The notes under the pieces: model-generated
What the model was told of the DNA's origin: nothing
Databases searched by the model: none
The model's input: only the letters and a program-made list of their open reading frames with translations
From: Bacillota bacterium
GTDB lineage: Bacteria > Bacillota > Desulfitobacteriia > Desulfitobacteriales > JAJXUE01
Assembly: GCA_021811155.1 (NCBI GenBank)
Contig: JAJZPO010000011.1
Span: 1-49,042 of the forward strand
Length of the DNA: 49,042 bases
Direction of reading: 5' to 3'
Program-made: the position numbers and the translations under genes
Shown here: positions 18,864-45,966 of the stretch, in pieces
Layout of the letters: every line of letters begins with the position of its first letter
Numbering within the stretch: position 1 is the stretch's first letter

Positions 18864-18879
18864 TGGCACGGGTTTTGCT
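18864..18879 (+). promoter_or_regulatory. sigma-54 promoter of the OYE operon
   Basis: TGGCAC-GGGTT-TTGCT matches the -24/-12 consensus TGGCAC-N5-TTGC(A/T) at every defined position. It lies 43 bases before the TTG start at 18922. It is almost identical to the promoter of the bbs-like operon at 24225, and a sigma-54 activator gene lies between the two operons. Confidence 0.85.
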
Positions 18880-22260: not shown

Positions 22261-22488
22261 GCAGAGAAAACCGTTAATCCCTTAATTACTGCGGATTAGC
22301 CGTAAATGTATACAACGTGCCGGTAATCTGGTGAATTACAGTACCGTATGTGTTATGCTTAAAAAATCAAGCAACTCCTCGGGGACGTTACCGGGATTCT
22401 CAGTAAACAATCCCTGAAACTCTATAGTATGCTCTTCCATATCACCTGTAGTAAGGGTCTGTGCTTACTGCGCAAAGGAGATGGTACT

Positions 22489-23934
22489 ATGACTACGTCC
22501 AGCGCAATTGCCCAGTGGGTAGAAGAGAATTTGAGGGTGCCGCCAAGTCATCTCCAAAGGATATCTAAACGATATGATAGGATAGACTTAATGATCCAGT
22601 CAAAAAAACTGATGGAGGCAGTGCTGGAGTCCATACCTGTCGGTATAGAAGTGGTCGATGCAAACGGGACAGTGGTATATATTAATAGATGCTTTGAAAC
22701 GTTATCCGGCATTAACAGGCACACCAGGCTAGGCAAGAATATTTTTAATACCAACCCGACCGGAATTCTGGCGCAAGCGTTAAAAAGTCAAACCGGAATT
22801 CATGATGTGTTGACGTTTGCCCGGGAATCCAAGGTTGGAGCCATTGGCAATGCGTCAGCCATCTTTTCGGATGGAAAGTTGATCGGGGCAATAACCGCTC
22901 TGAGAGAGGTATCCGAAGTCATACACTTAGCGCGAAAATACGCCCAGGTTATTTATACTCCGCCCAAACTGCCGGAGCAGGAAGTCCCTAAGTATAACTT
23001 TTCGGATATCATTGGCAGCTGCAGAGAAACCGCTGAGACTGTCCGACTTGCGAAAAAGGTTGCGACAAGTGATGCAACGGTTCTGTTGGAAGGGGAAAAC
23101 GGCACCGGCAAAGAGTTATTTGCCCACTCCATTCATGCAGGCAGTTCGCGCTTCAATAAGCCATTCCTGAGAATTAACTGTGCGGCCATTCCCGAAAATC
23201 TGTTGGAGAGCGAACTCTTCGGTTACGAGCACGGGGCGTTTACGGGGGCATCAAAGTCCAAGGCGGGTATCTTCGAATTGGCCAACGAGGGCTCATTATT
23301 TCTTGATGAGATTGGGGACATGTCTCTTCTCTTGCAGTCAAAGCTGCTGCGCGTATTACAGGAGCATGAAATCAGGCGCTTAGGCGGTTCCAAAACTATT
23401 TCGGTTGATGTGCGGATTATTGCCGCGACCAACCGGGACTTAAAACAAATGGTAGTTAAAGGGGCATTCCGGGAAGATCTATATTACAGGCTGAATGTAT
23501 TCTCTCTCCGGATTCCTGCACTGCGGGAACGCATTGACGACATTGAAGCATTGAGCCACCATTTCATAGCAAAACATAACCTCAGGTCCAAAAAACACAT
23601 TGAAGGTATTGAAACCGAGGCTTTGGACGCATTTTACCACCACCGGTGGCCGGGTAACGTCAGAGAACTGGAAAGTGTCATTGAATACGCAATTATTGCG
23701 ACTGACAACCATATGATCGGTGTTAACGACATTAAGGCAAAAATACCAATTTCGCAGGCGCCCAAGTGTCAAACTGCGCTGTTGACTATTGATGAAATGG
23801 AAAGGCGCATGATTGAACGGGCGTTAGAACTCTTCGGAGATAGCATGGATGGCAAGAAACAAGCGGCCGCTGCATTGGGGATATCTGTGGCAACTTTGTA
23901 CAATAAGCTGAGGAAAAATAGATTAGACGCCTAA
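22489..23934 (+). CDS. sigma-54-dependent transcriptional activator with PAS domain
   Basis: This 481-residue regulator has a short N-terminal helix, a PAS domain (residues about 40-150, LMEAVLESIPVGIEVVDANGTVVYIN), an AAA+ domain and a C-terminal Fis-type helix-turn-helix (KKQAAAALGISVATLYNKL). The AAA+ domain carries the Walker A motif GENGTGKE, the sigma-54 contact loop GAFTGA, Walker B (LFLDEIGD) and the arginine-rich sensor region. It has no receiver domain, so a ligand or redox signal bound by PAS probably controls it. The ATG at 22489 has AAAGGAGATGG before it. It lies between two operons with nearly identical sigma-54 promoters (18864 and 24225) and is their likely activator. Confidence 0.93.
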   Translation: MTTSSAIAQWVEENLRVPPSHLQRISKRYDRIDLMIQSKKLMEAVLESIPVGIEVVDANGTVVYINRCFETLSGINRHTRLGKNIFNTNPTGILAQALKSQTGIHDVLTFARESKVGAIGNASAIFSDGKLIGAITALREVSEVIHLARKYAQVIYTPPKLPEQEVPKYNFSDIIGSCRETAETVRLAKKVATSDATVLLEGENGTGKELFAHSIHAGSSRFNKPFLRINCAAIPENLLESELFGYEHGAFTGASKSKAGIFELANEGSLFLDEIGDMSLLLQSKLLRVLQEHEIRRLGGSKTISVDVRIIAATNRDLKQMVVKGAFREDLYYRLNVFSLRIPALRERIDDIEALSHHFIAKHNLRSKKHIEGIETEALDAFYHHRWPGNVRELESVIEYAIIATDNHMIGVNDIKAKIPISQAPKCQTALLTIDEMERRMIERALELFGDSMDGKKQAAAALGISVATLYNKLRKNRLDA

Positions 23935-24224: not shown

Positions 24225-24240
24225 TGGCACGGATATTGCT
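24225..24240 (+). promoter_or_regulatory. sigma-54 promoter of the bbs-like operon
   Basis: TGGCAC-GGATA-TTGCT is a perfect match to the -24/-12 consensus, with transcription expected to start near 24251. It lies 112 bases before the first gene and controls what looks like an eight-gene operon. No competing sigma-A promoter is obvious. Confidence 0.87.
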
Positions 24241-24351
24241 TTAGGTAAGGGCATTTGCTAAAGCCGGGCATAAGTGAACGCAAAAGCGTCAATTGCGAAT
24301 TGGAATTGTGAATTCCAAGTGGTACCAAGGTATGAGAGGAGATGGTTTGAC

Positions 24352-24780
24352 TTGAGTGTGAAGCCCGCAACTAATCAAGAGTATGAATTCTATCATCCCG
24401 ACCTGTTCGTAATGCCTGAAAACGGGGCAAAGCCCTATCTGTTGGGATACTTGTGCCAAAAGTGCGGCAAAACGTGGTTTCCGAAGGCAGTGCCTTGTCC
24501 TGAGTGTTGGTCCGAGGACATAATTCAAATTCCTCTCAGCAGGGTGGGCAAATTGTACAGTTATTCCACTGTCCACGTAGGGCAGAAGGGGATCCAGACT
24601 CCCTATGTGATCGGTTACGTGGATTTGCCGGAAAACGTCCGGGTCTTTGCCCAACTTGACATGGAGCCGGCCGAGCTGAAAATTGGTATGGATGTTGAGG
24701 TAACCGCCGGCGTAACCCGGGTGGACCCTAACGGGGTAAAAACCGTCAGCTATAAATTCAAGGCAGTTCCAGCCGATTGA
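24352..24780 (+). CDS. bbsA: DUF35 zinc-ribbon/OB-fold protein, BbsA-like thiolase subunit
   Basis: This 142-residue protein has a rubredoxin-like zinc ribbon (CQKCGKTWFPKAVPCPEC) and then an OB fold (GKLYSYSTVHVGQKG...PYVIGYVDLPENVRVFAQL). DUF35 proteins bind acyl-CoA-type thiolases and are needed for their activity. In benzylsuccinate degradation BbsA pairs with BbsB to cleave benzoylsuccinyl-CoA into benzoyl-CoA and succinyl-CoA. The start is TTG 24352, ten bases after GAGGAG. It is the first gene after the sigma-54 promoter, and the thiolase follows by 26 bases. The bbs name rests on gene order more than on this protein alone. Confidence 0.75.
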   Translation: MSVKPATNQEYEFYHPDLFVMPENGAKPYLLGYLCQKCGKTWFPKAVPCPECWSEDIIQIPLSRVGKLYSYSTVHVGQKGIQTPYVIGYVDLPENVRVFAQLDMEPAELKIGMDVEVTAGVTRVDPNGVKTVSYKFKAVPAD

Positions 24781-24806
24781 AGTGTGAAGTTGGAGGAGAA
24801 TGGTCT

Positions 24807-25952
24807 ATGAGAAAAGTCTATATTGTTGGCGCCGGCATGACGCCTTTCGGAAAGTTTCCCGACCGGCCTTATTACAATCTCGGCAAACAAGCGGCGCTGG
24901 AGGCTATTAAAGATGCCGCCATCGATCACCGGCAGATTCAAGCCGGTTTTGTAGGCAACGTCATGGCAGGCATGGTACCCGGCCAGAAGGTGTTCAAAGA
25001 ACTGGGTATGACCGGCATGCAAATTGTCAACGTGGAAAACGCCTGTTCCAGCGGCGCTACTGCCGTGAACCTGGGATATTGGGCCGTAGCCAGTGGGCAG
25101 TACGATGCGGTGATGGCAGTCGGTACCGAGAACTTGACCGGTAACCGCTCCGGCGGCACTGCCCTTGCCCCCGACCCGGACGACATTGAAGGTGTTCAGG
25201 GAGCGGTAATGCCTGGCATCTACGCCATGCGGGCCCGCCGTTATATGGAGGAGTATGGCATAACCCCAGAGGATTTGGCGCTGGTGGCGGTTAAGAATCA
25301 TAAACACGCCTCACTGAACCCGTATGCCCAATTCCGGAACTTGGTAACGGTGGAAGAAGTATTAGCTTCCCGGATGATAGCTGAGCCGTTTACTTTGCTG
25401 CAGTGCTGCCCGGTGGCGGACGGCGCTGCCGCAGTGGTGCTCTGTTCCGAAGAGAAGATGAGGGAACTGGGAGCCAAAGGTGTCCAAATCAATGCTTCAA
25501 TTTTGGTGTCAGGCAAATACAAGACCGAACCCGGCGACATGACAGTGCCGGAAATATCCGAGCGGGCGAGCCGCTTGGCTTACAGCATGGCCGGATTGGG
25601 ACCCGAAGACATTAATCTGGTTGAGTGCCATGATGCCTTTACCATTGCAGAAATTCTGTATTACGAGGTTTTGGGATTTTGCGGCAGGGGTGAAGGGGTT
25701 GGCTTGCTGCGGAGCGGGGCAGTGGAGTTGGGCGGCAAGGTCGTATTCAGTCCTCGCGGCGGCCTGATGTGCATGGGGCATCCGCTTGGCGCCACCGGGG
25801 TGGCCCAGATCGTAGAAGCCGTGTGGCAGCTGCGCGGGGAGGCGGGGGCCCGCCAAGTGCAGGGGGCCAAAGTGGCTATGACCCACGTGACAGGTGGGGG
25901 TGTGTCCGGCATGGACAACGCCGCCTGCGGGGTTCACATCCTGACAGTGTAA
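24807..25952 (+). CDS. bbsB: thiolase-like enzyme, BbsB-like benzoylsuccinyl-CoA thiolase
   Basis: This 381-residue protein belongs to the SCP-x/lipid-transfer type of thiolases. The nucleophilic Cys lies in VENACSSGATAV near residue 80; the catalytic His is in MGHPLGATG and a glycine-rich loop (VTGGGVSG) is near the end. A DUF35 partner directly upstream is typical for this type. Its proposed reaction is CoA-dependent cleavage of a 3-oxoacyl-CoA such as benzoylsuccinyl-CoA, the last step of the pathway. It starts at ATG 24807 behind GGAGGAG. Confidence 0.8.
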   Translation: MRKVYIVGAGMTPFGKFPDRPYYNLGKQAALEAIKDAAIDHRQIQAGFVGNVMAGMVPGQKVFKELGMTGMQIVNVENACSSGATAVNLGYWAVASGQYDAVMAVGTENLTGNRSGGTALAPDPDDIEGVQGAVMPGIYAMRARRYMEEYGITPEDLALVAVKNHKHASLNPYAQFRNLVTVEEVLASRMIAEPFTLLQCCPVADGAAAVVLCSEEKMRELGAKGVQINASILVSGKYKTEPGDMTVPEISERASRLAYSMAGLGPEDINLVECHDAFTIAEILYYEVLGFCGRGEGVGLLRSGAVELGGKVVFSPRGGLMCMGHPLGATGVAQIVEAVWQLRGEAGARQVQGAKVAMTHVTGGGVSGMDNAACGVHILTV

Positions 25953-25977
25953 AGACTCAGGAAAGGAGACCTGTGCG

Positions 25978-26733
25978 ATGTCAATCAGAAACAGGGTTGC
26001 TGTTGTGACCGGCTCAGGCAGCGGAATTGGCGAGGTTATTGCCAAGTCGTTGGCGCGGGAGGGAGCCAGGGTGGTTGTCAACGACGTCAACTCCGAACAG
26101 GCCGGGCGGGTGCAAGCTGACATAGTTAAGGCCGGGTACGAAGCCATAGCTGTGACTGCTGATGTCTCCAAACAGAGCCAGGTTCAGGATATGTTCAAGA
26201 CAGCTCAGACCGCCTTCGGCCGCGTTGACATTCTCGTTAACAATGCGGGCATCGCCAAGGACAGGGGGCTGATGAAGCTGTCCGAGGCAGACTGGGACAG
26301 CGTGATCGCTGTCAACCTTAAGGGGACGTTTCTCTGCAGCCAGGCGGCCGCAGCCTATATGCGCGAACAGAAGTACGGCAGAATCATCAATATTTCCTCC
26401 CGGGCCTGGTTGGGCTGGCCCGGCCAGGCTAATTACGCCGCTTCCAAAGGGGGAGTGGTCAGCCTGACGCGCACTCTGGCGCTTGAGCTGGCCAAATATG
26501 AGATTACCGTTAACTGTATTGCTCCGGGGATAATTGATACGCCGCTGTTCCACACCTTGCCGGAGGAGGCGGTTGCCAATTTAATGAGAGCGCAGCCCAT
26601 GGGAACGATTGGCAAAGCGGCAGATATCGCCTATGGTGCAGAGTTTTTCGCAGCGGATGAATCAAACTATGTTACCGGCCAGGTTATCTTTATTTGCGGC
26701 GGCAAGAGCGTGCTAAGTTCGCTGTCTGTGTAG
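25978..26733 (+). CDS. bbsC: short-chain dehydrogenase, BbsC-like
   Basis: This 251-residue SDR has the nucleotide-binding TGSGSGIG, the NNAG motif and the catalytic Ser (NISSRAW) with YAASK. With the next gene it matches BbsCD, the two-subunit NAD-dependent dehydrogenase that oxidises 2-(alpha-hydroxybenzyl)succinyl-CoA to the ketone. All catalytic residues are intact here. It begins at ATG 25978 behind AAAGGAG. An 83-base segment around the active site is nearly identical to the one in the next gene, although the rest of the two genes differ strongly. Confidence 0.8.
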   Translation: MSIRNRVAVVTGSGSGIGEVIAKSLAREGARVVVNDVNSEQAGRVQADIVKAGYEAIAVTADVSKQSQVQDMFKTAQTAFGRVDILVNNAGIAKDRGLMKLSEADWDSVIAVNLKGTFLCSQAAAAYMREQKYGRIINISSRAWLGWPGQANYAASKGGVVSLTRTLALELAKYEITVNCIAPGIIDTPLFHTLPEEAVANLMRAQPMGTIGKAADIAYGAEFFAADESNYVTGQVIFICGGKSVLSSLSV

Positions 26734-26766
26734 CGGCAAACAGGCTCGTAAAGGAGGGTATTTAAG

Positions 26767-27519
26767 GTGCGTTTTGACCAGCGTGTGGCGATGATAACCG
26801 GATCCGGCAGCGGCATCGGCGAAGGGATAGCCAAGACTTTGAGCGCGGCTGGAGTTAAAGTCGTGATTAATGATCTGGACGATCAGAAGATCGAGCGCGT
26901 TGTGGGCGAAATCAAAGCTGACGGAGGGACGGCAACCGGAATCAGGGCCGATGTCACAAAGCTTGACGAGGTCGAGGCAATGTACGCAAGCATTGTCCGG
27001 GAGTTTGGCCAAATCGATATTTTGGTGAACAATGCCGGCATCGCCCGTGACAAATCGATCAGGAAAATGAGCGAGGCAGATTGGGATGCGGTCATTGACG
27101 TCAATCTGAAAGGGGTTTTTCTTAACTGCAAGGTAGCCTCGGAGTACATGCGGGAGCGCAATTACGGCAGAATCATCAATATTTCGTCCCGGGCCTGGTT
27201 GGGCTGGCCCGGCCAGGCAAATTACGCCGCTTCCAAAGGGGGAGTAATCAGCCTCACCCGAACGCTGGCCCTGGAACTGGGCAAGAAGGGGATTACTGTA
27301 AACTGCATTGCCCCCGGCATCATTGAAACCGCTTTGTGGCACTCCCTGCCGGAAGACGCTAAAGCCAGGCTCCTCAAAGCCCAGCCAACCGGCAAGATTG
27401 GTTCACCCAAAGACATTGCCAACGCGGCAGCTTTCTTTGCAGCCGACGCAGCCGGTTATATTACCGGACAAACAATGTTTGTCTGCGGCGGCAAGAGCCT
27501 ATTTGCGAATCTGGGCTAA
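26767..27519 (+). CDS. bbsD: short-chain dehydrogenase, BbsD-like
   Basis: This 250-residue SDR is a tandem paralogue of the preceding gene with complete motifs: TGSGSGIG, NNAGIARD, catalytic Ser in NISSRAW and YAASK. It starts at GTG 26767, eight bases after GGAGGG, and lies 33 bases downstream of the first SDR. Two adjacent, diverged SDR genes at this place in the gene order are the hallmark of bbsC and bbsD. Which copy is the catalytic subunit cannot be settled from sequence; both look active. Confidence 0.8.
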   Translation: MRFDQRVAMITGSGSGIGEGIAKTLSAAGVKVVINDLDDQKIERVVGEIKADGGTATGIRADVTKLDEVEAMYASIVREFGQIDILVNNAGIARDKSIRKMSEADWDAVIDVNLKGVFLNCKVASEYMRERNYGRIINISSRAWLGWPGQANYAASKGGVISLTRTLALELGKKGITVNCIAPGIIETALWHSLPEDAKARLLKAQPTGKIGSPKDIANAAAFFAADAAGYITGQTMFVCGGKSLFANLG

Positions 27520-27553
27520 AGCCCGGATTCGCAGACGAAAGGGAAGTGCGACG

Positions 27554-28792
27554 ATGACAGAAGCCTCACACAGCCTCTTTGACAGTCTGCGAGTCCTGGA
27601 ACTGGCTGGGGAATTGGGCGCTTATACCGGCAAGCTGTTCGCCGACCTGGGCGCGGATGTGATCCGGATCGAACCGCTGGCCGGGGATCCGACCCGCCAA
27701 CGCCGGCCGTTCTTTCAAGCTGCCGCCGGCAGGGAAAACAGTCTTCGCTATCAATACTTAAATACCAACAAAAAGGCCATGGCCCTGGACTTGACGGACC
27801 CGGCAGCCGGCGAGATTTTGCGCAGGCTAATCAGGACGGCGGATTTATGCCTTGAAAGTTATCCGCCGGGGTATCTCGACCGGCTGGGATTGGGGTATGA
27901 GAACCTGAGCCAAATAAACCCGAGGCTGGTGCACACGGCCATTACGCCCTATGGGCAGTCCGGTCCGTACAAGGACTATCCCTACAGCGACCTGACAAGC
28001 TTGGCCATGGGTGGGATGCTGTACCTGGCGGGCATCGAAGCGGAGAAACCGGCCCGTGTACCGGATAATCAGTCGTTCTTTCAGGCCGATTTGTACGCTG
28101 CCTACGCCAGCATTGTGGCCCTTTATCACGCTGACGCAACGGAAGAGGGACAGTTTGTCGACGTTTCCATCCAGGAAAGCGTTACAACAGCTCTGGAAAA
28201 TGCAATTCAGACCTATGACCTGGAAGGGCGGATTCGCCGTGCAGCCGGTTCAGTGGAGGCGGGTTATGGCGCCTACGCCTGTCAAGACGGTTATGTGTAT
28301 GTTATGGCGGCTATGGGGCGCAATGCCTACCTGTGGGATCCTTTGGTCCAGTGGATGGCGGAGAAAAATATACCTGAGGCGGAAATTCTCGCAGAGGACA
28401 GATGGAAGGACCCGGAATACCGCAAGCTGGAAGAGGCCAAAACCACTTTTAAACGCATATTTGAGACATTTTCCAGGCAGTATCGCAAAGAAGAGCTGTA
28501 CGAGGAAAGCCAGAAGCGCAAGGTTGTGATCTACCCGGTCAATTCAGCCAAGGACGTGCTGGAAAACCCCCAACTGGCACACAGAAGCTTCTTTAAGCAC
28601 ATGTACGTGGCTTCTTTGGGCAGCAACCTCTGCTATCCGGGCGCTCCGTATGCTCTGGAAAAGATGGTTTGGCAGCTGAGGGCTCCGGCTCCCGTTTTTG
28701 GCCAGGACACAGCAGGAATCTTAGGGAATTTAGGGTATGGTCCGGAGGAGATCCAAGCCTTGGTGGAACGGGGTGTTGCTTATGTCAGGTAA
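27554..28792 (+). CDS. bbsE: class III CoA-transferase (CaiB/BaiF), BbsE-like subunit
   Basis: This 412-residue protein begins with the family's typical segment (LRVLELAGELGAYTGKLFADLGADVIRIEP) and has the conserved GYGAYACQDGYV loop. A candidate catalytic Asp lies in QADLYAAYAS near residue 180. With the next gene it would form the succinyl-CoA:benzylsuccinate CoA-transferase that activates the fumarate-addition product. It starts at ATG 27554 with AAAGGGAAG upstream, and its end overlaps the second transferase gene by 11 bases, typical of subunits of one complex. Confidence 0.8.
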   Translation: MTEASHSLFDSLRVLELAGELGAYTGKLFADLGADVIRIEPLAGDPTRQRRPFFQAAAGRENSLRYQYLNTNKKAMALDLTDPAAGEILRRLIRTADLCLESYPPGYLDRLGLGYENLSQINPRLVHTAITPYGQSGPYKDYPYSDLTSLAMGGMLYLAGIEAEKPARVPDNQSFFQADLYAAYASIVALYHADATEEGQFVDVSIQESVTTALENAIQTYDLEGRIRRAAGSVEAGYGAYACQDGYVYVMAAMGRNAYLWDPLVQWMAEKNIPEAEILAEDRWKDPEYRKLEEAKTTFKRIFETFSRQYRKEELYEESQKRKVVIYPVNSAKDVLENPQLAHRSFFKHMYVASLGSNLCYPGAPYALEKMVWQLRAPAPVFGQDTAGILGNLGYGPEEIQALVERGVAYVR

Positions 28793-30002
28793 ACTGCCTT
28801 TGGCTGGCATAAGAATTGCGGATTTTTCCTGGGTGGGGGCAGGGCCGATTACTACCCGTTTGCTGGCCGAATTCGGAGCGGAAGTTATCAGGCTGGAGTC
28901 GCAAAAGAGACCGGAAATTCTCAGGTTGACGGGACCTTATAAGGACGGGATTGCCGGGATTGAACGCAGCGGTTATTACAGCGTGCGGAATCCAAACAAA
29001 AAGAGCATTGACATTGACATGAACCATCCCAAGGCCAGGGACCTGGCGGTGAAGCTGATTCAGCAGAGCGACATCGTGATCAATAATTTTACCCTGGGAA
29101 CTATGGAAAAATGGCATCTCGGTTACGAAGAAGTCAAACAGATCAAACCGGATATTATTTATGTCACCATGCCGATTCAAGGCTCCACCGGGCCGCATCG
29201 CAATTACATGGGTTTTGGGGCCACCATGAATGCCCTGGTGGGAATTAATCATCTGAGCGGCTTCCCGGACAAGGAACCTTTCGGTAGCGGGACCAATTAT
29301 CCGGATCATGTTCCCAATCCGACCCATACTGCGTTTGCCATTATTGCCGCACTATGGCATCGCAGAAGAACAGGGGAAGGACAGGCAATCGAAGTAGCGC
29401 AGACTGAGGTGGCCTTAAATGTCCTGCCCACGGCCATTATGGATTATGCTGCCAACAACCGGATTGAGGCGCGAATTGGCAACAGAGATCTCAATGCGGC
29501 TCCTCATGGAGTGTATCAAACGCTCGGCAGCAGGCGGTGGATCGCCATCGCTATTTTCACTGACACTGAGTGGGCGGCGCTGACAGAGGTCATGGGCCAT
29601 CCGGCTTGGACGGAGGATCACAGGTTTGCCACCCTCACCGGACGCTTGGAGCACCAGGACGAACTGGATAGGTTGATCGAGAACTGGACCAGTCAACAAG
29701 AACCGTATCATCTCATGGAGAGATTGGCAGGGGCCGGCATCCGGGCCGGAGTTGTCCAGAACGCCAAGGATCTCCTGGAGGATCCCCACCTCCACGCGCG
29801 CGGCTTTTGGATCTACCTCAATCACCCGGAGATGCGCCGACATGTGTATAATAACTCTCCGTTTCGGCTCTCCAGGACGCCGACGCAAATAAGCACACCG
29901 GCGCCTTTGCTGGGGCAGCACACGGATGAAGTGTTGCGGGATGTTCTGGGCTTGAGTCAAAGGGAAATTGACCAACTCAGGCAAGAAAGGGTAATCGGCT
30001 GA
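28782..30002 (+). CDS. bbsF: class III CoA-transferase (CaiB/BaiF), BbsF-like subunit
   Basis: This 406-residue protein is the second CaiB/BaiF-type subunit, with the segment IRIADFSWVGAGPITTRLLAEF and a candidate catalytic Asp in YPDHVPNPT. It is clearly diverged from its neighbour, as BbsE and BbsF are from each other, which argues for a heteromeric enzyme rather than a simple duplication. Its ATG lies inside the end of the preceding gene. Order alone decides which is called E or F. Confidence 0.8.
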   Translation: MSGKLPLAGIRIADFSWVGAGPITTRLLAEFGAEVIRLESQKRPEILRLTGPYKDGIAGIERSGYYSVRNPNKKSIDIDMNHPKARDLAVKLIQQSDIVINNFTLGTMEKWHLGYEEVKQIKPDIIYVTMPIQGSTGPHRNYMGFGATMNALVGINHLSGFPDKEPFGSGTNYPDHVPNPTHTAFAIIAALWHRRRTGEGQAIEVAQTEVALNVLPTAIMDYAANNRIEARIGNRDLNAAPHGVYQTLGSRRWIAIAIFTDTEWAALTEVMGHPAWTEDHRFATLTGRLEHQDELDRLIENWTSQQEPYHLMERLAGAGIRAGVVQNAKDLLEDPHLHARGFWIYLNHPEMRRHVYNNSPFRLSRTPTQISTPAPLLGQHTDEVLRDVLGLSQREIDQLRQERVIG

Positions 30003-30027
30003 GACCGGCCGCGAGAGAGGGATAGCT

Positions 30028-31227
30028 ATGGACTTTTCCTTACCTGAAGAGCTCCTCCAGCTCAAAGCGATGGTGCGAAAATTTACCGAACATGAGTTGT
30101 TCCCTTTGGAGAAAACCGTGATCGAGCGGGAAGCCGGCAGAGGTCTTACTGATCTGCCGGCATTACCTCCCGAAGACGAGACAAGGCTCATGCAGCGGAC
30201 AGCAGAACTAGGGCTCTGGGGCCTTGACGTTCCGGCACAGTTTGGAGGGCAAGGTCTGGGCGCTTTAGCCAAAACGGTGGTTGTGGAAGAGCTGAACAGG
30301 TCGATCGTGCCTTTCACCCTGCCGCCGGATGCTCCGAATCTGAATTTCCTGTTAGAAGCCTGCAGCGAGGAGCAGTTCGAAAAGTATTTGATTCCGTATG
30401 CCAAGGGAGAAAAACTGTCCGCCTTGGCGCTCACTGAACCCAATGCCGGGTCCGACGCGGGAGCCATCCAGATGAGAGCTGACTTCATTGACGGACACTG
30501 GCTATTGAACGGCAGCAAAATGTTTATCAGTTACGCCCGGAAGGTAGATTTCTTTATTGTAATAGCGGTGTCGGATCGGCAAAAGGGCAAACGCGGCGGA
30601 TTCACTGCATTTCTGGTTGATCAGGGCGCTCCGGGACTGCACATTATGCGCAATGTCAACACCATAGGCGAAATGCTGACTTATGAGCTCGTTTTCGAAG
30701 ATCTTGAACTGGACCCGGGGCAAGTCCTGGGCGAGCCGGGTCAGGCTTTCATACCGCTGCAAAACCGCTTAGGAGTTAGGCGCCTGGAACTGGCGGCACG
30801 ATGCTTGGGGTATGCGGACAGGCTGATTCACCTGATGATTGAGCAAGCCAACGTCAGGCAGACCTTCGGCAAGCCCTTGGCAGACAGGCAAGCGGTGCAG
30901 TGGTGGATATCCGATTCATTGATGGAGCTGCATGCGGCTCGCCTGATGACCTATCATGCCGCCTGGAAGGCGGACCAGGGCGCCAGGGATCTGCGCCAGG
31001 AAGCTGCCATGGTTAAAGTGTTCGCCACAGAAATGCTTGCCAAAGTTGCCGACCGGGCTATTCAGGTTCACGGTGGGATGGGGCTCAGCAAGGAACTGCC
31101 AATTGAATACATTTACCGGCTGGCGCGAATTTTCCGGATTGTCGAAGGTCCCTCAGAAATCCACAGGTGGCTGTTAGCAAGGGAAACTTTCAAGCAAGGG
31201 AAACCCTATGACATGTTCCGGCTATAA
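30028..31227 (+). CDS. bbsG: acyl-CoA dehydrogenase, BbsG-like
   Basis: This 399-residue flavoenzyme has the family signatures ALTEPNAGSDAG (FAD/substrate contact) and QVHGGMGLSKELP. The catalytic base Glu sits in IVEGPSEIHRW near the C-terminus. In the bbs pathway it oxidises (R)-benzylsuccinyl-CoA to (E)-phenylitaconyl-CoA. The start is ATG 30028 behind GAGAGGG. Electron-transfer flavoprotein genes, its usual partner, are not in the window. Confidence 0.82.
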   Translation: MDFSLPEELLQLKAMVRKFTEHELFPLEKTVIEREAGRGLTDLPALPPEDETRLMQRTAELGLWGLDVPAQFGGQGLGALAKTVVVEELNRSIVPFTLPPDAPNLNFLLEACSEEQFEKYLIPYAKGEKLSALALTEPNAGSDAGAIQMRADFIDGHWLLNGSKMFISYARKVDFFIVIAVSDRQKGKRGGFTAFLVDQGAPGLHIMRNVNTIGEMLTYELVFEDLELDPGQVLGEPGQAFIPLQNRLGVRRLELAARCLGYADRLIHLMIEQANVRQTFGKPLADRQAVQWWISDSLMELHAARLMTYHAAWKADQGARDLRQEAAMVKVFATEMLAKVADRAIQVHGGMGLSKELPIEYIYRLARIFRIVEGPSEIHRWLLARETFKQGKPYDMFRL

Positions 31228-31248
31228 CCAGAAGGGAGAAGGTTATTT

Positions 31249-32016
31249 ATGGGTGTTTTGTTCAGCAAAGAAGGTCATGTGGCTTATGTTACGTTAAACA
31301 GGCCCGAGGCGCTGAATGCCTTGGACCCGGAGTCGTGGCAAGAACTGCATCAGATTTGGCGGGGAATCAGGGAAGACCGGGAAATCCGGGTAACTGTTCT
31401 CACCGGCGCCGGTGACCGCGCTTTTTGCACCGGCTCAGATCTGAAAAAGACGCTGTCCCCCCAAGAAAGTCTGGCGTCGACTTATTTTGATGAAGAGAAT
31501 TTGTTGGCCCCCATGGAAATGTGGAAGCCGATAGTTTGCGCCATCAACGGCTACGCCATAGGGGGCGGCCTGGAAATGGCTCTTGCCTGTGACATCCGCA
31601 TTGCATCTACACAAGCCAGTTTTGGCTTGTCCGAAGTAAAGGTTGGCAGCCTGCCGGGTTTGGGGGGGACGCAGCGCTTGGTACGTGCTATTCCCAGGGC
31701 AATTGCCATGAAGATGCTTTTGACCGGGGACAGGATCGATGCCCAGGAGGCTTATCGCATTGGACTGATAAGCGACATGGTTGAACCTGATGCGCTGATG
31801 GACAAAGCTAAAGAGATTGCAGCCAAGATTGCCGGAAATGCTCCTCTTTCTGTCAAGGCGGCCAAACAAGCGGTCGTTGTGGGATCGGATCTCCCGGTCA
31901 AGCAGGGCTCAACTCTCGAAAACCTGTTATGGGGACTGTTGCGTGATACTGAAGACCGTATTGAAGGCAGGAGAGCTTTCGCAGAAAAGAGAGCTCCAGA
32001 GTACAAGGGAAAATAA
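31249..32016 (+). CDS. bbsH: enoyl-CoA hydratase/crotonase family, BbsH-like
   Basis: This 255-residue crotonase has both oxyanion-hole segments (CTGSDL and AIGGGLEMALACDIRIA) and the first catalytic Glu in SEVKVGSLPG. The second catalytic Glu of classical hydratases (E in AMEMVLTGDRI) is Lys here (AMKMLLTGDRI). In the bbs pathway the enzyme hydrates phenylitaconyl-CoA. The missing Glu could reflect a different hydration geometry or another reaction. The ATG at 31249 follows GGGAGAAGG. It is the last gene of the eight-gene set. Confidence 0.8.
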   Translation: MGVLFSKEGHVAYVTLNRPEALNALDPESWQELHQIWRGIREDREIRVTVLTGAGDRAFCTGSDLKKTLSPQESLASTYFDEENLLAPMEMWKPIVCAINGYAIGGGLEMALACDIRIASTQASFGLSEVKVGSLPGLGGTQRLVRAIPRAIAMKMLLTGDRIDAQEAYRIGLISDMVEPDALMDKAKEIAAKIAGNAPLSVKAAKQAVVVGSDLPVKQGSTLENLLWGLLRDTEDRIEGRRAFAEKRAPEYKGK

Positions 32017-32319: not shown

Positions 32320-33678
32320 ATGAGTCAAGTATCCATTGGCGCACGGCTTAATCGTTTGCCGGTTACAAGAACCCATAAGTTCCTGATAGCTGCAACAGGC
32401 CTAGGCACTTTTTTCGAAATGTATGATATTCTGCTTGCAGCTACCCTGGCAATGGTTCTGACAAAGGAATTTCATCTAAGCGCCGTTACATTGCCGCTGG
32501 TGATGGGTTCGGGTTTCCTGGGCATGTTCATTGGTTGCCTCGTGTTGGGCAGCCTGGGTGACCGCAGAGGACGCAGGTCGCTGTTTATGATTTCCCTGGC
32601 GGTTTACTCTGTATTTACCTTAATTGGCGCTTTCAGCGTCAGCGCTTCCATGCTGATTGTCTCGCGTTTTATCGCGGGGATCGGCTTGGGGGTGGAGTTC
32701 CCGGTCGTTGATACTTACCTGGGCGATATGCTCCCGGCGCGCTACCGTGGGGTGGGAACAGCCGTGGCGCTGACGATCGGTACCTGCGGCTATTCGACTG
32801 TCGGTTTTCTGTCGCGGGTGTTGGTGCCCGCTCATCCTCTGGGCTGGGACGGCTGGCGCTGGTTGTTTGTGCTTGGTTCTTTAGGCGCGGTTATTGTGTG
32901 GACTATGCGCAGGCACCTGCCGGAGTCTTCGAGGTGGCTGGAATCTGTTGGCCGGGTTGACGAGGCAGAGGCAATCACCAGGAAAATGGAAGAGGAAGCG
33001 CTGGCAAAGCTGGGCGGGCGTCCGCTGCCGACACCTTCCAGCGAGGAAGCGGTGGTTGCCAGGAAGCTGCCCTGGACCTATATGTTCCACCGTACCTACA
33101 GGGGCAGGGTTGCGGTTCTCTGGATCCTGGAAATCTTTCAGACGGCGGGTTTCTACGGCTTTGCTACCATGGTGCCAATGGTATTAGTGGCAAAGGGGTT
33201 TTCCATAGTAAACTCATTACTTTATACCGGACTGTCTTTTCTCGGTTACCCGGTAGGCGGAATTATCGCGACTGCGCTGGCGGAGAGAATTCAGCGCAAG
33301 TGGTTAATTGTCGGCAGCACCTTCATTATAGGACTCTTCGGCATGCTTCTCGCCTTTGCAAACTCAACCGTGCCGATTGTAATCTATGCTTTCATAGTGG
33401 TAGTTGCGGGTTCGGGGTTAGGAACCGGACTTCATATTTTCCAGGCTGAAATTTTCCCGACTGCTATAAGGTCAACAGCCACAAGTGTTTCTTATGGTCT
33501 TAGCCGCTTGGCCGCCGGAGCCCTGCCGTTCATTCTCGTACCGCTGCTCAAAAGCCGTGGGCCTGTCGCCATGCTGACCGCGATAACCATTTCAATGCTG
33601 ATAGTCATTCTTGATATTGGCATTTTTGCACCGAAGACGACCGGCCGGGCACTCGAATCACTGAATGTGGTAGATTAG
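32320..33678 (+). CDS. MFS transporter, aromatic-acid/organic-acid symporter type
   Basis: This 452-residue protein has 12 hydrophobic segments and the MFS loop motif GSLGDRRGRRSLF between helices 2 and 3. The helix 4-5 region reads IAGIGLGVEFPVVDTYLGDMLP and the helix 6-7 loop begins LPESSRWL, as in the sugar/aromatic-acid:proton symporter branch. It starts at ATG 32320 with AAAGGGG before it. Its place after the bbs-like genes suggests uptake or efflux of an aromatic acid or succinate adduct, but the exact substrate is unknown. A terminator follows. Confidence 0.82.
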   Translation: MSQVSIGARLNRLPVTRTHKFLIAATGLGTFFEMYDILLAATLAMVLTKEFHLSAVTLPLVMGSGFLGMFIGCLVLGSLGDRRGRRSLFMISLAVYSVFTLIGAFSVSASMLIVSRFIAGIGLGVEFPVVDTYLGDMLPARYRGVGTAVALTIGTCGYSTVGFLSRVLVPAHPLGWDGWRWLFVLGSLGAVIVWTMRRHLPESSRWLESVGRVDEAEAITRKMEEEALAKLGGRPLPTPSSEEAVVARKLPWTYMFHRTYRGRVAVLWILEIFQTAGFYGFATMVPMVLVAKGFSIVNSLLYTGLSFLGYPVGGIIATALAERIQRKWLIVGSTFIIGLFGMLLAFANSTVPIVIYAFIVVVAGSGLGTGLHIFQAEIFPTAIRSTATSVSYGLSRLAAGALPFILVPLLKSRGPVAMLTAITISMLIVILDIGIFAPKTTGRALESLNVVD

Positions 33679-37397: not shown

Positions 37398-37517
37398 GCA
37401 AGCAGACTGTGCACATCCAGTTTCCCATGGCGTTATTGACTGTTAACACCCTGTTTCCTGCCATACACCCGCCTTTTTTGCTCCCTTGCTGGGGAAATGG
37501 CCCGGAATCGGACAAAT

Positions 37518-37533
37518 AGGAACTGATCTTGCA
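37518..37533 (+). promoter_or_regulatory. sigma-54 promoter of the molybdenum-hydroxylase operon
   Basis: AGGAAC-TGATC-TTGCA keeps the invariant GG and GC at the right spacing and shares the core GGAACTG with the promoter at 41547 (GGGAAC-TGGTT-TTGCA). It lies 46 bases before the GTG start at 37579. It is weaker than the two TGGCAC promoters, but its twin and the palindromes support it. Confidence 0.65.
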
Positions 37534-37578
37534 TATAGATTACGTGATATCTTTGAAAAGCAATCGGAGGTGATTTTT

Positions 37579-38463
37579 GTGCAGGACTTTGATTACTGGG
37601 AACCAGACAGCCTGGCGGAAGCGGTAACCATTCTCTCGGCGCTTAAGGGACAGGCATTTCCTCTCGCAGGGGGAACTGATCTGCTGCCAAAGCTGCAGAA
37701 AGGCCAGGTGAGCGGTTCGGGTGTGGTAAACCTGAAGCATGTCCCCGAACTGGCAGGTCTGGGCATGGAAAGAACAAGCCTGAGGATTGGGGCCTTGACT
37801 ACTGTAAGCAGCCTGTTGGCAAACAAGGAGGTCTCCACTTATTTTCCGGCGCTGGCCGGAGCCGCCAGGGCTTTGGGGACGCCTCAAATCCGCAACCTGG
37901 CCACTGTGGGCGGCAATCTCTGCAATGCATCCCCCGCGGCAGACTTGGCGGTTGTCCTGCTGGCCTATGAGGGGCGCTTCAAGCTGGCAGGTCCGGGAGG
38001 TGCCAGGACTTTGGCGGCGCAGGATTTCTTCATCGGGCCCGGGCAAACAGCGCTGACCCAGGGAGAAATTCTCACGGCGGTGGAGATTGATATTCCGCCT
38101 CTGCACAGCCGCAGCGCATTTTTAAAGCATGGTTTGCGCAAAAGCCATGAAATCGCCCTGGTCAATGCTGCTGTGCAATTGACGCTTGAGAGCGGCACAG
38201 ATAAGATTGCTGCGACCAGGATTGCCCTGGGCGCAGTGGCGCCTACCCCGCTGCGCGTCCGGACAGCCGAAGCGGTTCTGGTTGGGACCCGGGGCGGCAG
38301 CGCTGCCTGGGATGAGGCGGCTGAAAAAGTCATGGCGGCCGTTGCGCCCATCGACGATATCCGCAGCACAGGCGCTTATCGCAGGCATATTGCCGGAGTA
38401 TTGACGCGAAGAGCATTACACGAGGCTTGGGGGGAAGCTTATGAAACTGCCAATCACGCTTAA
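37579..38463 (+). CDS. molybdenum hydroxylase, FAD-binding subunit (CoxM/XdhB type)
   Basis: This 294-residue protein has the FAD-binding signatures PLAGGTDLLP near residue 35 and ATVGGNLCNASPAADL near residue 112. It would pass electrons from the FeS subunit to NAD or another acceptor. It lacks the cysteine-rich insertion of 4-hydroxybenzoyl-CoA reductase (HcrB), so that specific enzyme is unlikely. The start is GTG 37579 with GGAGGTGA upstream. Its end overlaps the FeS-subunit start by 23 bases, so the complex is encoded in the order FAD-FeS-Mo. Confidence 0.92.
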   Translation: MQDFDYWEPDSLAEAVTILSALKGQAFPLAGGTDLLPKLQKGQVSGSGVVNLKHVPELAGLGMERTSLRIGALTTVSSLLANKEVSTYFPALAGAARALGTPQIRNLATVGGNLCNASPAADLAVVLLAYEGRFKLAGPGGARTLAAQDFFIGPGQTALTQGEILTAVEIDIPPLHSRSAFLKHGLRKSHEIALVNAAVQLTLESGTDKIAATRIALGAVAPTPLRVRTAEAVLVGTRGGSAAWDEAAEKVMAAVAPIDDIRSTGAYRRHIAGVLTRRALHEAWGEAYETANHA

Positions 38464-38917
38464 AGTTAACGGGGAGAGTTACCGTTTGGATGCGGAGGCA
38501 AAACGGACTTTGCTCGATGTGCTCAGGGAGGACCTGGCCTTGACCGGCACCAAAAAAGGGTGCGGCGCCGGTGAGTGCGGAGCCTGTACTGTGCTGATGG
38601 ACGGCAAGCCGGTAAATTCCTGTCTCGTGCTGGCCGTGGATGCCTCAGGCAGGGAGATCACCACCATCGAAGGGGTAGGCGGACTCGATGGGCTGAGCCC
38701 CGTCCAGGAGGCTCTTGTGGACCATGGCGCCGTTCAGTGCGGCTATTGCACCCCTGGCGTAGTCTTGACGGCCAAAGCGCTGCTTGACAGCAACCCGCAC
38801 CCTACGGAAGCAGAAGTCAGGGAAGGACTGAGCGGCAATCTCTGCCGCTGCACCGGATACGTGAAGATCGTTGAAGCCGTTCTGGCTGTCAGCCGCGCTT
38901 CGGAAAGGAGGGATTGA
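38441..38917 (+). CDS. molybdenum hydroxylase, [2Fe-2S] subunit (CoxS/XdhC type)
   Basis: This 158-residue protein carries both [2Fe-2S] clusters of the family: the plant-type cluster CGAGECGACTVLMDG...NSC near residues 43-64 and the four-helix cluster CGYCTPG...CRCTGY near residues 103-140. It moves electrons from the molybdenum centre to FAD. It starts at ATG 38441 inside the end of the FAD-subunit gene and stops three bases before the Mo-subunit start. Confidence 0.95.
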   Translation: MKLPITLKVNGESYRLDAEAKRTLLDVLREDLALTGTKKGCGAGECGACTVLMDGKPVNSCLVLAVDASGREITTIEGVGGLDGLSPVQEALVDHGAVQCGYCTPGVVLTAKALLDSNPHPTEAEVREGLSGNLCRCTGYVKIVEAVLAVSRASERRD

Positions 38918-38920
38918 AAG

Positions 38921-41197
38921 ATGAGTTATGCCATTGTGGGCCAGAGGGTGAGAAGGGTGGATGCGCGAGAAAAGGTTTCAGGCCGGGCGGTGTATACCGG
39001 CGACCTGAATCTGCCCCATATGCTGGTAGGCAAGGTGCTGCGCAGTCCCCATGCCCATGCCAGGATCCTCAGCATTGATACCTCGAAGGCCCGTTCCCTG
39101 CCTGGGGTCAAAGCGGTTCTTACCTGGGAGGACACGCCGAAAATCCTCTGGAACAGCGCCGGGTTTCCCCCATCCCCTGGCGCGGTCCTGATGGAAGACC
39201 AGTATATCCTCACGGACAAGGCACGCTATGTGGGAGATGCTGTCGCAGCCGTGGCGGCGGTGGATGAGGATACAGCCGAGCGGGCGTTGGAACTGATTGA
39301 GGTAGAATATGAAGCGCTGACCCCTGCTATGGATGTGGAGGCAGCCATGGCTGAGGGAGCGCCGCTCATTCACAGCGCGGAAAAAAACGTGGCGGCACAC
39401 ATGCCGGTTGTGATCGGGGATGTGGAAGAGGGGTTCAGGCAGGCTGACTTTGTGTTCGAAGACCGGTATTACGTCCCCAAAGTGTACCAGGTGACCATGG
39501 AGCCCTGCGGGGTTGCGGTGGCAGCGCCTGACATCGACGGCCGTATCACCATCTGGACCTCCACCCAGATGCCCCACCTGGTACGCGGTATCACCGCGCA
39601 TGCCCTGGGTTTGAAGACGGGTAAGGTGCGGATTATCAAACCGCCTGTGGGAGGAGCGTTCGGCAGCCGGCTGGGCGTGGTGAACGAGCCTGTCGCCGCC
39701 CTGCTGGCACTGAAGTCAGGCTATCCTGTGATGCTTAAATATACCAGGGAAGAGTCTTTTCTGGGGACAGAATCCAGGCATCCCATCACCATGGTCTTAA
39801 AAACCGGGGTGAAAAAGGATGGGAGTTTTACCGCCCGGCAAATGACAGCCTATATTGACGGCGGCGCCTATGCCACCCACACGCCTTCTTTCGCGGGGCC
39901 GGTGGCGGGGTGGTTTTTGGCCATGTACAAGTGCGCCAACATCAAGGTCGACAACTATTCCGTCTACACCAACAGCACCCAGTGCGGCGCCTTCCGCGGT
40001 TACGGCAATCCGCAGGTGGTGTTTGCCGTGGAGTCCCAGGTGGATGACATAGCGATGGCTTTAGGGCTTGATCCCCTGGAGATCCGCCGCAAGAACCATC
40101 CGTGTGAAGGCGAGGTCTGGACCTGGTCCGGTTGGGAAATTGAAAGCTGCGGCCTGGAGGAAGCCATTGAGCGCGGCGCCAAGGCGATCGGTTGGGATAC
40201 GAAAAGAAACGGGCAGGCAGTCCCGTCCGGGACCAAGAAACGCGGTGTGGGCATGGGGTACATGATGCATGTCAGCGGGGCCAGGCCCATGCTGCACGAA
40301 ACTTCGGCCGCTGTAGTGAAGATTAATGAGGACGGCAGCGCCAATCTCATTTTCAGCAATTCGGATGTCGGCCAGGGGAGCGGCACAGCCCTGACCCAGG
40401 TGGCCGCGGAGGAACTGGGGCTGGCCTATGAGGATGTGATGATCACCAAGACGGCTGATACAGATGTGGCTGGATTTGACATCGGCAGCCACGCCAGCCG
40501 CCAAGCCTACTCAGGCGGCAACGCTGTCAGAAAGGCTGCTGCGGCGGCCAGGGAGAAGCTCCTGACCATGGCTGCGGAAATCCTCCAGGTGCCGGTTGAA
40601 AACCTCACTGTGGAAAACGGAGTGGTCCTGACCCGGGAAGGGGAGGAAAAATCCATCAGCGTGGCAGAAGTTTCGCACAAGGCTCACTTTGGCAGCCACG
40701 GCCATCAGATCATCGGGGTCGCCAGCGAGGAGCCTGAGGGCAACCCGCCGGTTTATGCCGCCCAGTTCGCGGAGGTGGAGGTGGACACAGAGACCGGAGT
40801 GGTGGAGGTGCTGAAGGTTGTGGCCGCTCACGATGTGGGTACTGCCATCAACCCAACGCTGGTGGAAGGGCAGATTCAGGGAGCGCTGCAGCAGGGAATC
40901 GGTTATGCGCTGACGGAGGAATACCGTTATGACCCTGCCAGCGGTCGTCCCCTCAACGCAAACCTGGCAGATTATAAAATACTGACAGCTATGGATATGC
41001 CTGAGGTAGAGACCATTCTGGTGGAGGCTTCCTGCCGGACCGGGCCGTTTGGCGCCAAGAGCGTCGGGGAATCGGGCCTGGTGGGGACGGCGGCAGCAAT
41101 TGCCAATGCGGTCTTTGATGCCACCGGCATCCGCTTCAGAGAACTGCCGATAACGCCGGAAAAAGTGCTGGCAGCTTTACGGGCCCAGGAAAAGTAA
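38921..41197 (+). CDS. molybdenum hydroxylase, molybdopterin-binding catalytic subunit
   Basis: This 758-residue protein belongs to the xanthine dehydrogenase/aldehyde oxidase/CoxL family. Visible features are GGAFGSRLG, the substrate-region FRGYGNPQ, QGSGTALTQVAAEELG, IQGALQQGIGYAL and the catalytic Glu in GAKSVGESGLVG near the C-terminus. It hydroxylates a heteroaromatic ring, purine or aldehyde with water as the oxygen source. The CoxL-specific cysteine signature of CO dehydrogenase is absent. The substrate cannot be named from sequence. The operon context (2-oxoacid oxidoreductase, cyclic-amidase-like gene) suggests a nitrogen heterocycle. The start is ATG 38921 with GGAGGGATTG upstream. 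Confidence 0.93.
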   Translation: MSYAIVGQRVRRVDAREKVSGRAVYTGDLNLPHMLVGKVLRSPHAHARILSIDTSKARSLPGVKAVLTWEDTPKILWNSAGFPPSPGAVLMEDQYILTDKARYVGDAVAAVAAVDEDTAERALELIEVEYEALTPAMDVEAAMAEGAPLIHSAEKNVAAHMPVVIGDVEEGFRQADFVFEDRYYVPKVYQVTMEPCGVAVAAPDIDGRITIWTSTQMPHLVRGITAHALGLKTGKVRIIKPPVGGAFGSRLGVVNEPVAALLALKSGYPVMLKYTREESFLGTESRHPITMVLKTGVKKDGSFTARQMTAYIDGGAYATHTPSFAGPVAGWFLAMYKCANIKVDNYSVYTNSTQCGAFRGYGNPQVVFAVESQVDDIAMALGLDPLEIRRKNHPCEGEVWTWSGWEIESCGLEEAIERGAKAIGWDTKRNGQAVPSGTKKRGVGMGYMMHVSGARPMLHETSAAVVKINEDGSANLIFSNSDVGQGSGTALTQVAAEELGLAYEDVMITKTADTDVAGFDIGSHASRQAYSGGNAVRKAAAAAREKLLTMAAEILQVPVENLTVENGVVLTREGEEKSISVAEVSHKAHFGSHGHQIIGVASEEPEGNPPVYAAQFAEVEVDTETGVVEVLKVVAAHDVGTAINPTLVEGQIQGALQQGIGYALTEEYRYDPASGRPLNANLADYKILTAMDMPEVETILVEASCRTGPFGAKSVGESGLVGTAAAIANAVFDATGIRFRELPITPEKVLAALRAQEK

Positions 41198-41211
41198 TCT
41201 GAGAGTTTTGG

Positions 41212-41240
41212 CCAAGCCAACCAGACCCTGGTTGGCTTGG
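41212..41240 (+). terminator. 13-bp perfect hairpin after the molybdenum-hydroxylase operon
   Basis: CCAAGCCAACCAG-ACC-CTGGTTGGCTTGG is a very stable stem with a three-base loop, 14 bases after the Mo-subunit stop. No U run follows, so termination efficiency is uncertain. Confidence 0.55.
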
Positions 41241-41242
41241 TT

Positions 41243-41437
41243 GGTACATTGGCGTACCAGCGGGGGGCGCCTGGCCACGGACCGGAGCTTGGTGCAGGCG
41301 ACTTCACCCCATTTTTCCACCTGGCGCAGGAACAGGTGAATTCCGGTAAATCGATGTACCAGAGGCCGAAGTTGACAGGACCGGCATTTCCAGGTTTCTG
41401 CCGGAATAATCTGTGGTGAGTGGTAAATCGGTGTACC
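41243..41437 (+). promoter_or_regulatory. three enhancer sites GGTA(A/C)-N6-GTACC upstream of the oxidoreductase operon
   Basis: The sites lie at 41243-41258, 41345-41360 and 41422-41437, with the inner six bases ATTGGC, ATCGAT and ATCGGT, and each is followed by A. They are 110-300 bases before the sigma-54 promoter at 41547. The same palindrome precedes the molybdenum-hydroxylase promoter, so both operons should be under one activator. No gene is evident in this 450-base gap. Confidence 0.65.
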
Positions 41438-41546
41438 ATGGTTTTCTTCCCGCCTGCCGGAGTACAGACAGCTCAAAGCTGTTTTCCTGCCGTCCAGGCC
41501 TAATCTTTGACTGTTTAGGGTGAAAATTGACTCCTATTGCCTATGC

Positions 41547-41562
41547 GGGAACTGGTTTTGCA
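41547..41562 (+). promoter_or_regulatory. sigma-54 promoter of the 2-oxoacid oxidoreductase operon
   Basis: GGGAAC-TGGTT-TTGCA has the GG and GC elements ten bases apart and closely resembles the promoter at 37518. It lies 88 bases before the GTG start at 41650. Confidence 0.68.
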
Positions 41563-41649
41563 TTACAAGGCTGGGGCTAAACTTTCTCCGGCCTCATGCC
41601 GTGCTGAAATTATTGGTCGCGTCAAGCTAAAGCTTAGGAGGTGCAAAAA

Positions 41650-42207
41650 GTGTTGCAGTTTGTTGTCCAGGGCAGGGGGGGACAGGGAGCCCAGCGTGCC
41701 GGTGAAATCCTGGCCAACCTGTTCTTCCGGGAAGGGAAATATGTTCAGGCCTACGCCACGTATGGCGGAGCCCGCCGCGGTACTCCGGTAAGCTCCTTTA
41801 TCCGGGTCGATGACAAGCCGATCCGGCTGCGCTGCGATATTGAAAATCCTGACATCATTGTGTGCTTTGATCCCAGCCTGCTGAACGCTGCGCTCTTAAA
41901 AGGCACGGGAGCGCATACCCTGGTCCTGATCAATTCGGCCAAACCTGCAGGGTTCTTTTCCCATCTGGGGAATTTCCGGGCCGTTACCATTGACGCCAAG
42001 TCAATTGCCCAGGCTAACGGTCTGGGGCGTATCGTCAATTCAACCCTGGTTGGGGCCGTTGTGGGCCTGTTGGGCGAGCCTGGAATTGACGCCTTAACCA
42101 GTGTGGTTGCGGACATGAGCCCGGTCAAACAGACGGAGAATGTCGCCGCCTGTCTTGACGGTTTTCGGCTCGTTGCGCAAGGGGGGGCTTTGCATGTCGC
42201 AGGTTAA
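41650..42207 (+). CDS. 2-oxoacid:acceptor oxidoreductase, gamma subunit
   Basis: This 185-residue protein begins with the gamma-subunit signature VVQGRGGQGAQRAGEILA and the following TYGGARRGTPV segment, as in pyruvate and phenylglyoxylate oxidoreductases. It helps bind CoA and close the active site. The start is GTG 41650, eight bases after AGGAGG, and its end overlaps the next gene by 14 bases. Order here is gamma, FAD/ferredoxin fusion, alpha, beta. Confidence 0.9.
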   Translation: MLQFVVQGRGGQGAQRAGEILANLFFREGKYVQAYATYGGARRGTPVSSFIRVDDKPIRLRCDIENPDIIVCFDPSLLNAALLKGTGAHTLVLINSAKPAGFFSHLGNFRAVTIDAKSIAQANGLGRIVNSTLVGAVVGLLGEPGIDALTSVVADMSPVKQTENVAACLDGFRLVAQGGALHVAG

Positions 42208-45033: not shown

Positions 45034-45039
45034 TCTGCT

Positions 45040-45903: not shown

Positions 45904-45966
45904 CTTCTGTATTCCGACCCCAGAGACCTGCCAGTAAGAATAATGAGTAGAAGGAGGTAATTTGCA

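Follow-up and report, generated by a model that had tools for sequence, protein, structure and literature searches.

A genuine bbs operon, running from bbsA to bbsH behind an exact sigma-54 promoter, is present in the draft genome of a member of the Desulfitobacteriales (Bacillota; GCA_021811155.1) in whose assembly we found no fumarate-adding enzyme. Together with a sigma-54 activator gene of its own and an MFS transporter gene, the operon makes up a cassette, and we lean, by a little, towards reading this cassette as serving the importer-fed scavenging of benzylsuccinate or of a similar arylsuccinate. Benzylsuccinate is the initial product when toluene is degraded anaerobically. Given that the assembly contains no benzylsuccinate-making enzyme, the host may live on the leakage of toluene degraders and not on toluene itself.

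The bbs operon and its place in the Bbs family

In the window, by which we mean the whole stretch of 49,042 nucleotides that was analysed, the ORF list shows eight intact and co-directional open reading frames on the + strand between positions 24274 and 32016, in the order bbsA-B-C-D-E-F-G-H, and their Pfam domains follow one another as zinc-ribbon/OB-fold (DUF35/ChsH2), thiolase, two SDRs, two class III CoA-transferases, acyl-CoA dehydrogenase and crotonase. The features of the cassette are as follows:

22429..23934, + strand: sigma-54-dependent activator (PAS, AAA+, Fis-type HTH); Pfam Sigma54_activat 1e-72, PAS, HTH_8
24225..24240, + strand: -24/-12 sigma-54 promoter TGGCACGGATATTGCT; exact match to the consensus TGGCAC-N5-TTGCT
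24274..24780, + strand: bbsA, zinc-ribbon/OB-fold subunit of benzoylsuccinyl-CoA thiolase; PDB best match 7pxp_A
24777..25952, + strand: bbsB, thiolase subunit; PDB best match 7pxp_C
25978..26733, + strand: bbsC, SDR subunit; BbsC/BbsD alignment and tree of the window and related loci
26767..27519, + strand: bbsD, catalytic SDR subunit; PDB best match 7pcs_B BbsD
27548..28792, + strand: bbsE, benzylsuccinate CoA-transferase subunit; PDB best match 9fn0_A
28737..30002, + strand: bbsF, CoA-transferase subunit; PDB best match 9fn0_B
30028..31227, + strand: bbsG, benzylsuccinyl-CoA dehydrogenase; acyl-CoA dehydrogenase family, identity and synteny with Bacillota operons
31249..32016, + strand: bbsH, benzylidenesuccinyl-CoA hydratase (crotonase); Pfam, identity and synteny with the nearest Bacillota operons
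32320..33678, + strand: MFS organic-acid symporter, candidate arylsuccinate importer; TIGR00895, under its cut-off

The activator is the probable regulator of the operon. Two exact sigma-54 consensus matches were observed in the window against 0.06 expected per shuffled window, and an rpoN gene was found in the genome. The perfect promoter described in the initial annotation is borne out, as is its view that this promoter takes the place of two-component control, the arrangement not being of the TdiSR type. Sites resembling the sigma-54 consensus (9 of its 11 bases) also precede bbsA in three bss-bearing Bacillota loci, and the promoter therefore seems to be characteristic of these Bacillota in general and not peculiar to this operon. 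The span of 24225 to 32016 first given to the operon holds at its end, whereas 24225 is the start of the promoter and the genes begin at 24352 (or at 24274, where the listed ORF opens). Ribosome-binding sites and the relatives indicate that the true starts likely lie inside the listed ORFs of bbsA (about 24352, a TTG after AGGAGA), bbsB (about 24807) and bbsF (about 28782).

For BbsA, B, D, E and F, the best match in the PDB is in each case the Bbs subunit of a solved structure, with a wide margin for A (139.7 bits, runner-up 66.9), B (388 bits, runner-up 263), E (389 bits, runner-up 141.5) and F (471 bits, runner-up 181), and with 7pcs_B BbsD ranking first among 697 sequences for BbsD (269 bits). 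For BbsG, the PDB matches are general acyl-CoA dehydrogenases and no others, which gives a family-level assignment; the protein is 74–76% identical to, and syntenic with, the BbsG of bss-linked Desulfosporosinus and Paradesulfitobacterium operons. BbsC and BbsH were assigned through synteny and identity to linked operons, BbsH having syntenic counterparts of 77–82% identity in the Bacillota bbs operons closest to it, and both catalytic glutamates of this crotonase were seen on inspection by eye. D190 of BbsF is invariant in an alignment of eight BbsF from bbs operons and is, by inference, the putative catalytic aspartate. ETF genes are absent from the operon, a point that counts against the scavenging reading.

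An alignment of BbsF was used to scan genome contigs, giving 80 loci that were then studied by synteny and by a concatenated BbsB+E+F tree. In this tree the window operon lies within a clade of 33 Bbs operons (support 100), as sister to those of Paradesulfitobacterium ferrireducens and Desulfosporosinus BRH_c37 (support 100), both of whose genomes bear bss genes, and actinomycetal sets that include part of the eight genes branch outside the clade. BbsB, E and F thus do not branch with ordinary enzymes; such branching was one of the two outcomes that the initial annotation had named as speaking against itself. By PDB best matches, phylogeny and gene order, the complete bbsABCDEFGH-like operon claimed there, in its exact order, is a true bbs operon as far as sequence can tell, and its attribution to a Gram-positive host agrees with the bbs-bearing relatives in the same order, Paradesulfitobacterium and Desulfosporosinus. 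NCBIfam equivalog cut-offs were dropped as a membership test and are no defining feature of this operon: BbsA (166 bits, cut-off 250) and BbsB (437 bits, cut-off 750) fall below them, and since the BbsA and BbsB of bss-linked Bacillota miss them likewise, these cut-offs do not discriminate in Bacillota.

BbsC has been described, in a title cited in PMC10818641, as an inactive pseudoenzyme subunit. In our alignment, the BbsC of the window retains GxxxGxG, NNAG and N-S-Y-K, and the full motif set is found in 8 of the 10 other Bacillota loci examined, in none of the examined loci labelled Pseudomonadota, Thermodesulfobacteriota or Myxococcota, and not in NaphS2. In many Thermodesulfobacteriota, BbsC still has N-S-Y-K, and only its cofactor motifs are gone. 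Bacillota BbsC stand apart from Gram-negative BbsC in the SDR tree, in which the placing of the latter is unsure because their branches are long. The intact Bacillota BbsC suggests that the pseudoenzyme state may have arisen later, in Gram-negative lineages.

The missing fumarate-adding enzyme

All genome-level statements made here come from targeted searches of the genome, a 3.22 Mb draft of 149 contigs with 99.51% completeness and 0.64% contamination. The search for the PFL family gave one locus, in two overlapping frames (C31:22743-24730), and a BssA query, the P. ferrireducens protein that scores 1396 bits to toluene BssA, found no better match in the genome than this gene. We rejected it as a fumarate-adding enzyme, given that it is closest to choline TMA-lyase/PFL2 types, reaches BssA at E=2e-6 only and is frame-broken. 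Looking for a second glycyl-radical activase (BssD), we found that the only strong activase match in the genome adjoins this same glycyl-radical gene, which is not of the Bss type, and the BssF query found no BssF in the genome. BssF (565 aa, without a Pfam model) was detected in each of the five bss-bearing Bacillota that were tested, one of them a MAG with no bssA in its assembly, Desulfosporosinus UBA8487. The anaerobic hydrocarbon oxidation that the initial annotation ascribed to the host is thus not supported by the genome: no bssA-, nmsA-, hbsA- or assA-type enzyme, second glycyl-radical activase or BssF was found at this completeness, and the lack of a fumarate-adding enzyme is the other outcome that the annotation had set against itself.

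Two side observations concern these genes. The glycyl-radical enzyme of contig C31 (L003 10324-13316) has an N-terminal extension of about 190 aa, SCP2-like by eye, before its PFL-like domain, and its reading frame is broken close to a run of G; the neighbouring genes encode an activase, an aldehyde dehydrogenase and two nitrilase-like proteins. The 565-aa protein without a Pfam match at L038 10157-11854, which is probably BssF, is kept in Bacillota bss clusters at 46–77% identity to this copy and has homologues at 42–45% in Geotalea, Geobacter and Aromatoleum genomes.

The main rival to scavenging is that the host is an ordinary anaerobic degrader of toluene or alkylbenzenes whose bss cluster was merely lost from the draft assembly or bin, for example because it lies on a plasmid or was left unbinned. 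The fragmentation of the assembly speaks for such a loss, and so does Desulfosporosinus UBA8487 (G058), in which bssE, bssF and bssD remain beside bbs although bssA is missing; four other bbs-bearing genomes without bssA are MAGs too. Overall, a fumarate-adding enzyme is found in 28 of the 34 true-bbs genomes, and, apart from the window genome, the five that have none are all MAGs. Against it stand the high completeness and the fact that BssA, the second activase and BssF are all absent, and not bssA alone. Moreover, the ORFs of the flanks, 24 kb before the operon and 17 kb after it, include no bss-type gene, and these 41 kb contrast with most of the Bacillota bbs loci whose flanks are long enough, in which bss genes lie within 10–15 kb. 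The fumarase gene is missing as well: of the five nearest loci with linked bss, four have a fumarase C-terminal-domain gene, which would aid fumarate regeneration, behind bbsH, and the window operon has none there. With all this, we regard the loss of a bss cluster as an unlikely explanation, though one to be taken seriously.

The cassette, its substrate and the fate of benzoyl-CoA

G001, a genome of the same genus, matches the left flank in collinear order, at about 82% DNA identity, as far as window position 22166, and the right flank from 33907 onwards; the activator, bbs and MFS genes are all missing between these conserved flanks, which adjoin other genes there. Given that the two flanks lie on different contigs of G001 (83% complete), the comparison shows variable content and not a single empty site. 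Base composition, tried as a sign of recent acquisition, was uninformative, its GC being similar in the cassette and the flanks. In the right flank, the genes at 37486-47307 encode a three-subunit xanthine-dehydrogenase-like enzyme (777.6 bits to the XdhA model, cut-off 780), a GltD-like FAD oxidoreductase, a 2-oxoacid:ferredoxin oxidoreductase subunit and a dihydropyrimidinase-like hydrolase, and suggest a separate catabolic cluster.

Three features of the MFS gene count against the importer-fed reading: it lies about 300 bp away from bbsH, it belongs only weakly to the aromatic acid/H+ symport family (TIGR00895, 184 bits against a cut-off of 418), and its nearest homolog (56%) adjoins genes resembling a 2-hydroxyacid oxidase. 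In two other genomes with bbs, G037 and G058, nothing matched it at E <= 1e-60.

Contig C54 encodes a class II benzoyl-CoA reductase of the BamB type, which reaches 1122 bits against the solved enzyme and 221 against the runner-up. Ferredoxin and HdrA-like partners accompany it, the same contig has a gene of the benzoate-CoA ligase family that passes its cut-off, and there is a second BamB on contig C23. Together, these genes make it plausible that the bbs pathway ends in benzoyl-CoA in this host. The route beyond benzoyl-CoA is atypical, which counts against the scavenging reading, since the BamA-like hydrolase of C54 (333 aa) reaches 157 bits against the curated BamA cut-off of 464. BamA (TIGR03200) alone is a misleading test for benzoyl-CoA use, given that this protein below the cut-off adjoins a clear BamB. 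The BamA-like crotonase beside BamB on C54 (L048 8269-9264; about 333 aa) has a Cys-rich, zinc-ribbon-like tail, and P. ferrireducens has a similar protein (L049 9922-10881); both score about 150 bits against the BamA model, whose cut-off is 464.

The substrate could also be a different 2-substituted succinate, such as hydroxybenzyl- or naphthylmethylsuccinate or a natural benzylsuccinate-like acid, and no product of a hydrocarbon. The fumarate-adding enzymes beside the Bacillota bbs operons of the clade are of at least two kinds (BssA of 864 aa and a 61%-identical form of 809 aa), related CoA-transferase/thiolase sets occur in aerobes, and some 5 kb upstream of the window operon there is the gene of an OYE flavoenzyme behind a sigma-54 site of its own. 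However, the closest operon, 73% identical over BbsB/E/F, is linked to a BssA with 1396 bits to toluene BssA, the genome has its benzoyl-CoA reductase cluster, and the OYE scores best against mycofactocin and bile-acid OYE models (below their cut-offs) and is also present in G001, which has no bbs. We hold such a substrate to be rather improbable. The site in front of this OYE/FadH-type flavoenzyme, at 18864-18879, is the second perfect match of the window; the Fe-S cysteine motif of the enzyme looks altered, the gene is common to G001, and its candidacy as a naphthoyl-CoA reductase is not supported, the family models giving it no support.

That the operon works in reverse, making benzylsuccinate from benzoyl-CoA and succinyl-CoA, seems to us very improbable. 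The bbs steps have been reported as reversible, and a Geobacter bbs operon yields benzylsuccinate in E. coli (PMC10818641), but benzylsuccinate has no known use here, and the adjoining activator and transporter and the benzoyl-CoA catabolic cluster suit catabolism better.

We therefore return to scavenging as the preferred reading. Toluene or alkane degraders would release an arylsuccinate, in all likelihood (R)-benzylsuccinate or one of its methyl or hydroxy analogues; the host would import it, with the MFS protein as the candidate importer, and its presence would activate the PAS-AAA+ regulator, so that the sigma-54 RNA polymerase would transcribe bbsA-H. BbsEF would transfer CoA from succinyl-CoA to the arylsuccinate, BbsG would dehydrogenate, BbsH hydrate and BbsCD oxidise the product, and thiolysis by BbsAB would give benzoyl-CoA, which would enter the BamB-type reductase pathway of the genome, and succinyl-CoA, which would recharge BbsEF. 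The fuller version of this proposal, a self-contained arylsuccinate-scavenging cassette with which a bacterium unable to activate toluene imports leaked benzylsuccinate and finishes its degradation, with both subunits of BbsCD catalytically competent, we put forward tentatively, as one that may well prove too strong.

Free benzylsuccinates occur in contaminated groundwater (PMC7599786), and it has been suggested that other microbes degrade acids of this kind (PMC4561516). Strains of Azoarcus CIB were unable to live on benzylsuccinate as their only source of carbon, for which poor uptake was blamed (PMC5874301), and the MFS protein is a candidate transporter to test where this known bbs strain failed. 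If a bbs operon does occur alone with a candidate importer, benzylsuccinate would be a shared metabolite consumed by others, its use as a field marker for toluene degradation would be affected, and the assumption that bbs implies hydrocarbon activation would be broken.

Comparison with known bbs systems

Among the more distant systems, the BbsEF/thiolase/DUF35 sets of aerobic Actinomycetota and of Variovorax plasmids also join a CoA-transferase pair with a thiolase and an OB-fold protein, but in a different gene order and often without an acyl-CoA dehydrogenase; the BbsB/E/F tree took in the actinomycetal sets and left out the Variovorax plasmid locus, and a plasmid collection searched for close operons gave only distant sets, in aerobes. 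The bns operon for naphthylmethylsuccinate beta-oxidation (NaphS2, locus L068) shares the pathway logic and the enzyme families and is more distant (BbsF 51%); in the window genome, where the searches were aimed at other enzymes, no reductase of the naphthoyl type came to notice.

The bbs operons of Thauera, Aromatoleum, Azoarcus and Geobacter encode the same eight enzymes, in the same order in most lineages, at about 45–55% identity to the window operon for most subunits. In contrast to the TdiSR two-component control of the denitrifiers, the window operon is under a sigma-54 promoter, and its BbsC has the cofactor motifs that Gram-negative BbsC lacks. In known anaerobic toluene degraders, bss and bbs have been described as fully conserved together (PMC10818641).

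Closest of all are the bbsABCDEFGH operons of P. ferrireducens and Desulfosporosinus (BRH_c37, UBA8487 and Tol-M), with the same order and 60–82% protein identity; Bacillota with bss, bbs and bam have already been published, namely Desulfosporosinus Tol-M (PMC4299902). A second bbs copy of Tol-M (L042, contig 98) keeps bbsE-H, with bbsD seemingly truncated and bbsA-C not seen alongside. The genomes of these relatives contain bss genes, be it bssA or others, and in most cases a fumarase gene after bbsH, whereas the window genome has no bss, and the window operon, unlike theirs, stands beside an activator and an MFS transporter of its own. Judged against the open-access literature, it is this bss-less bbs operon with its own regulator and transporter that sets the present system apart from known bbs.
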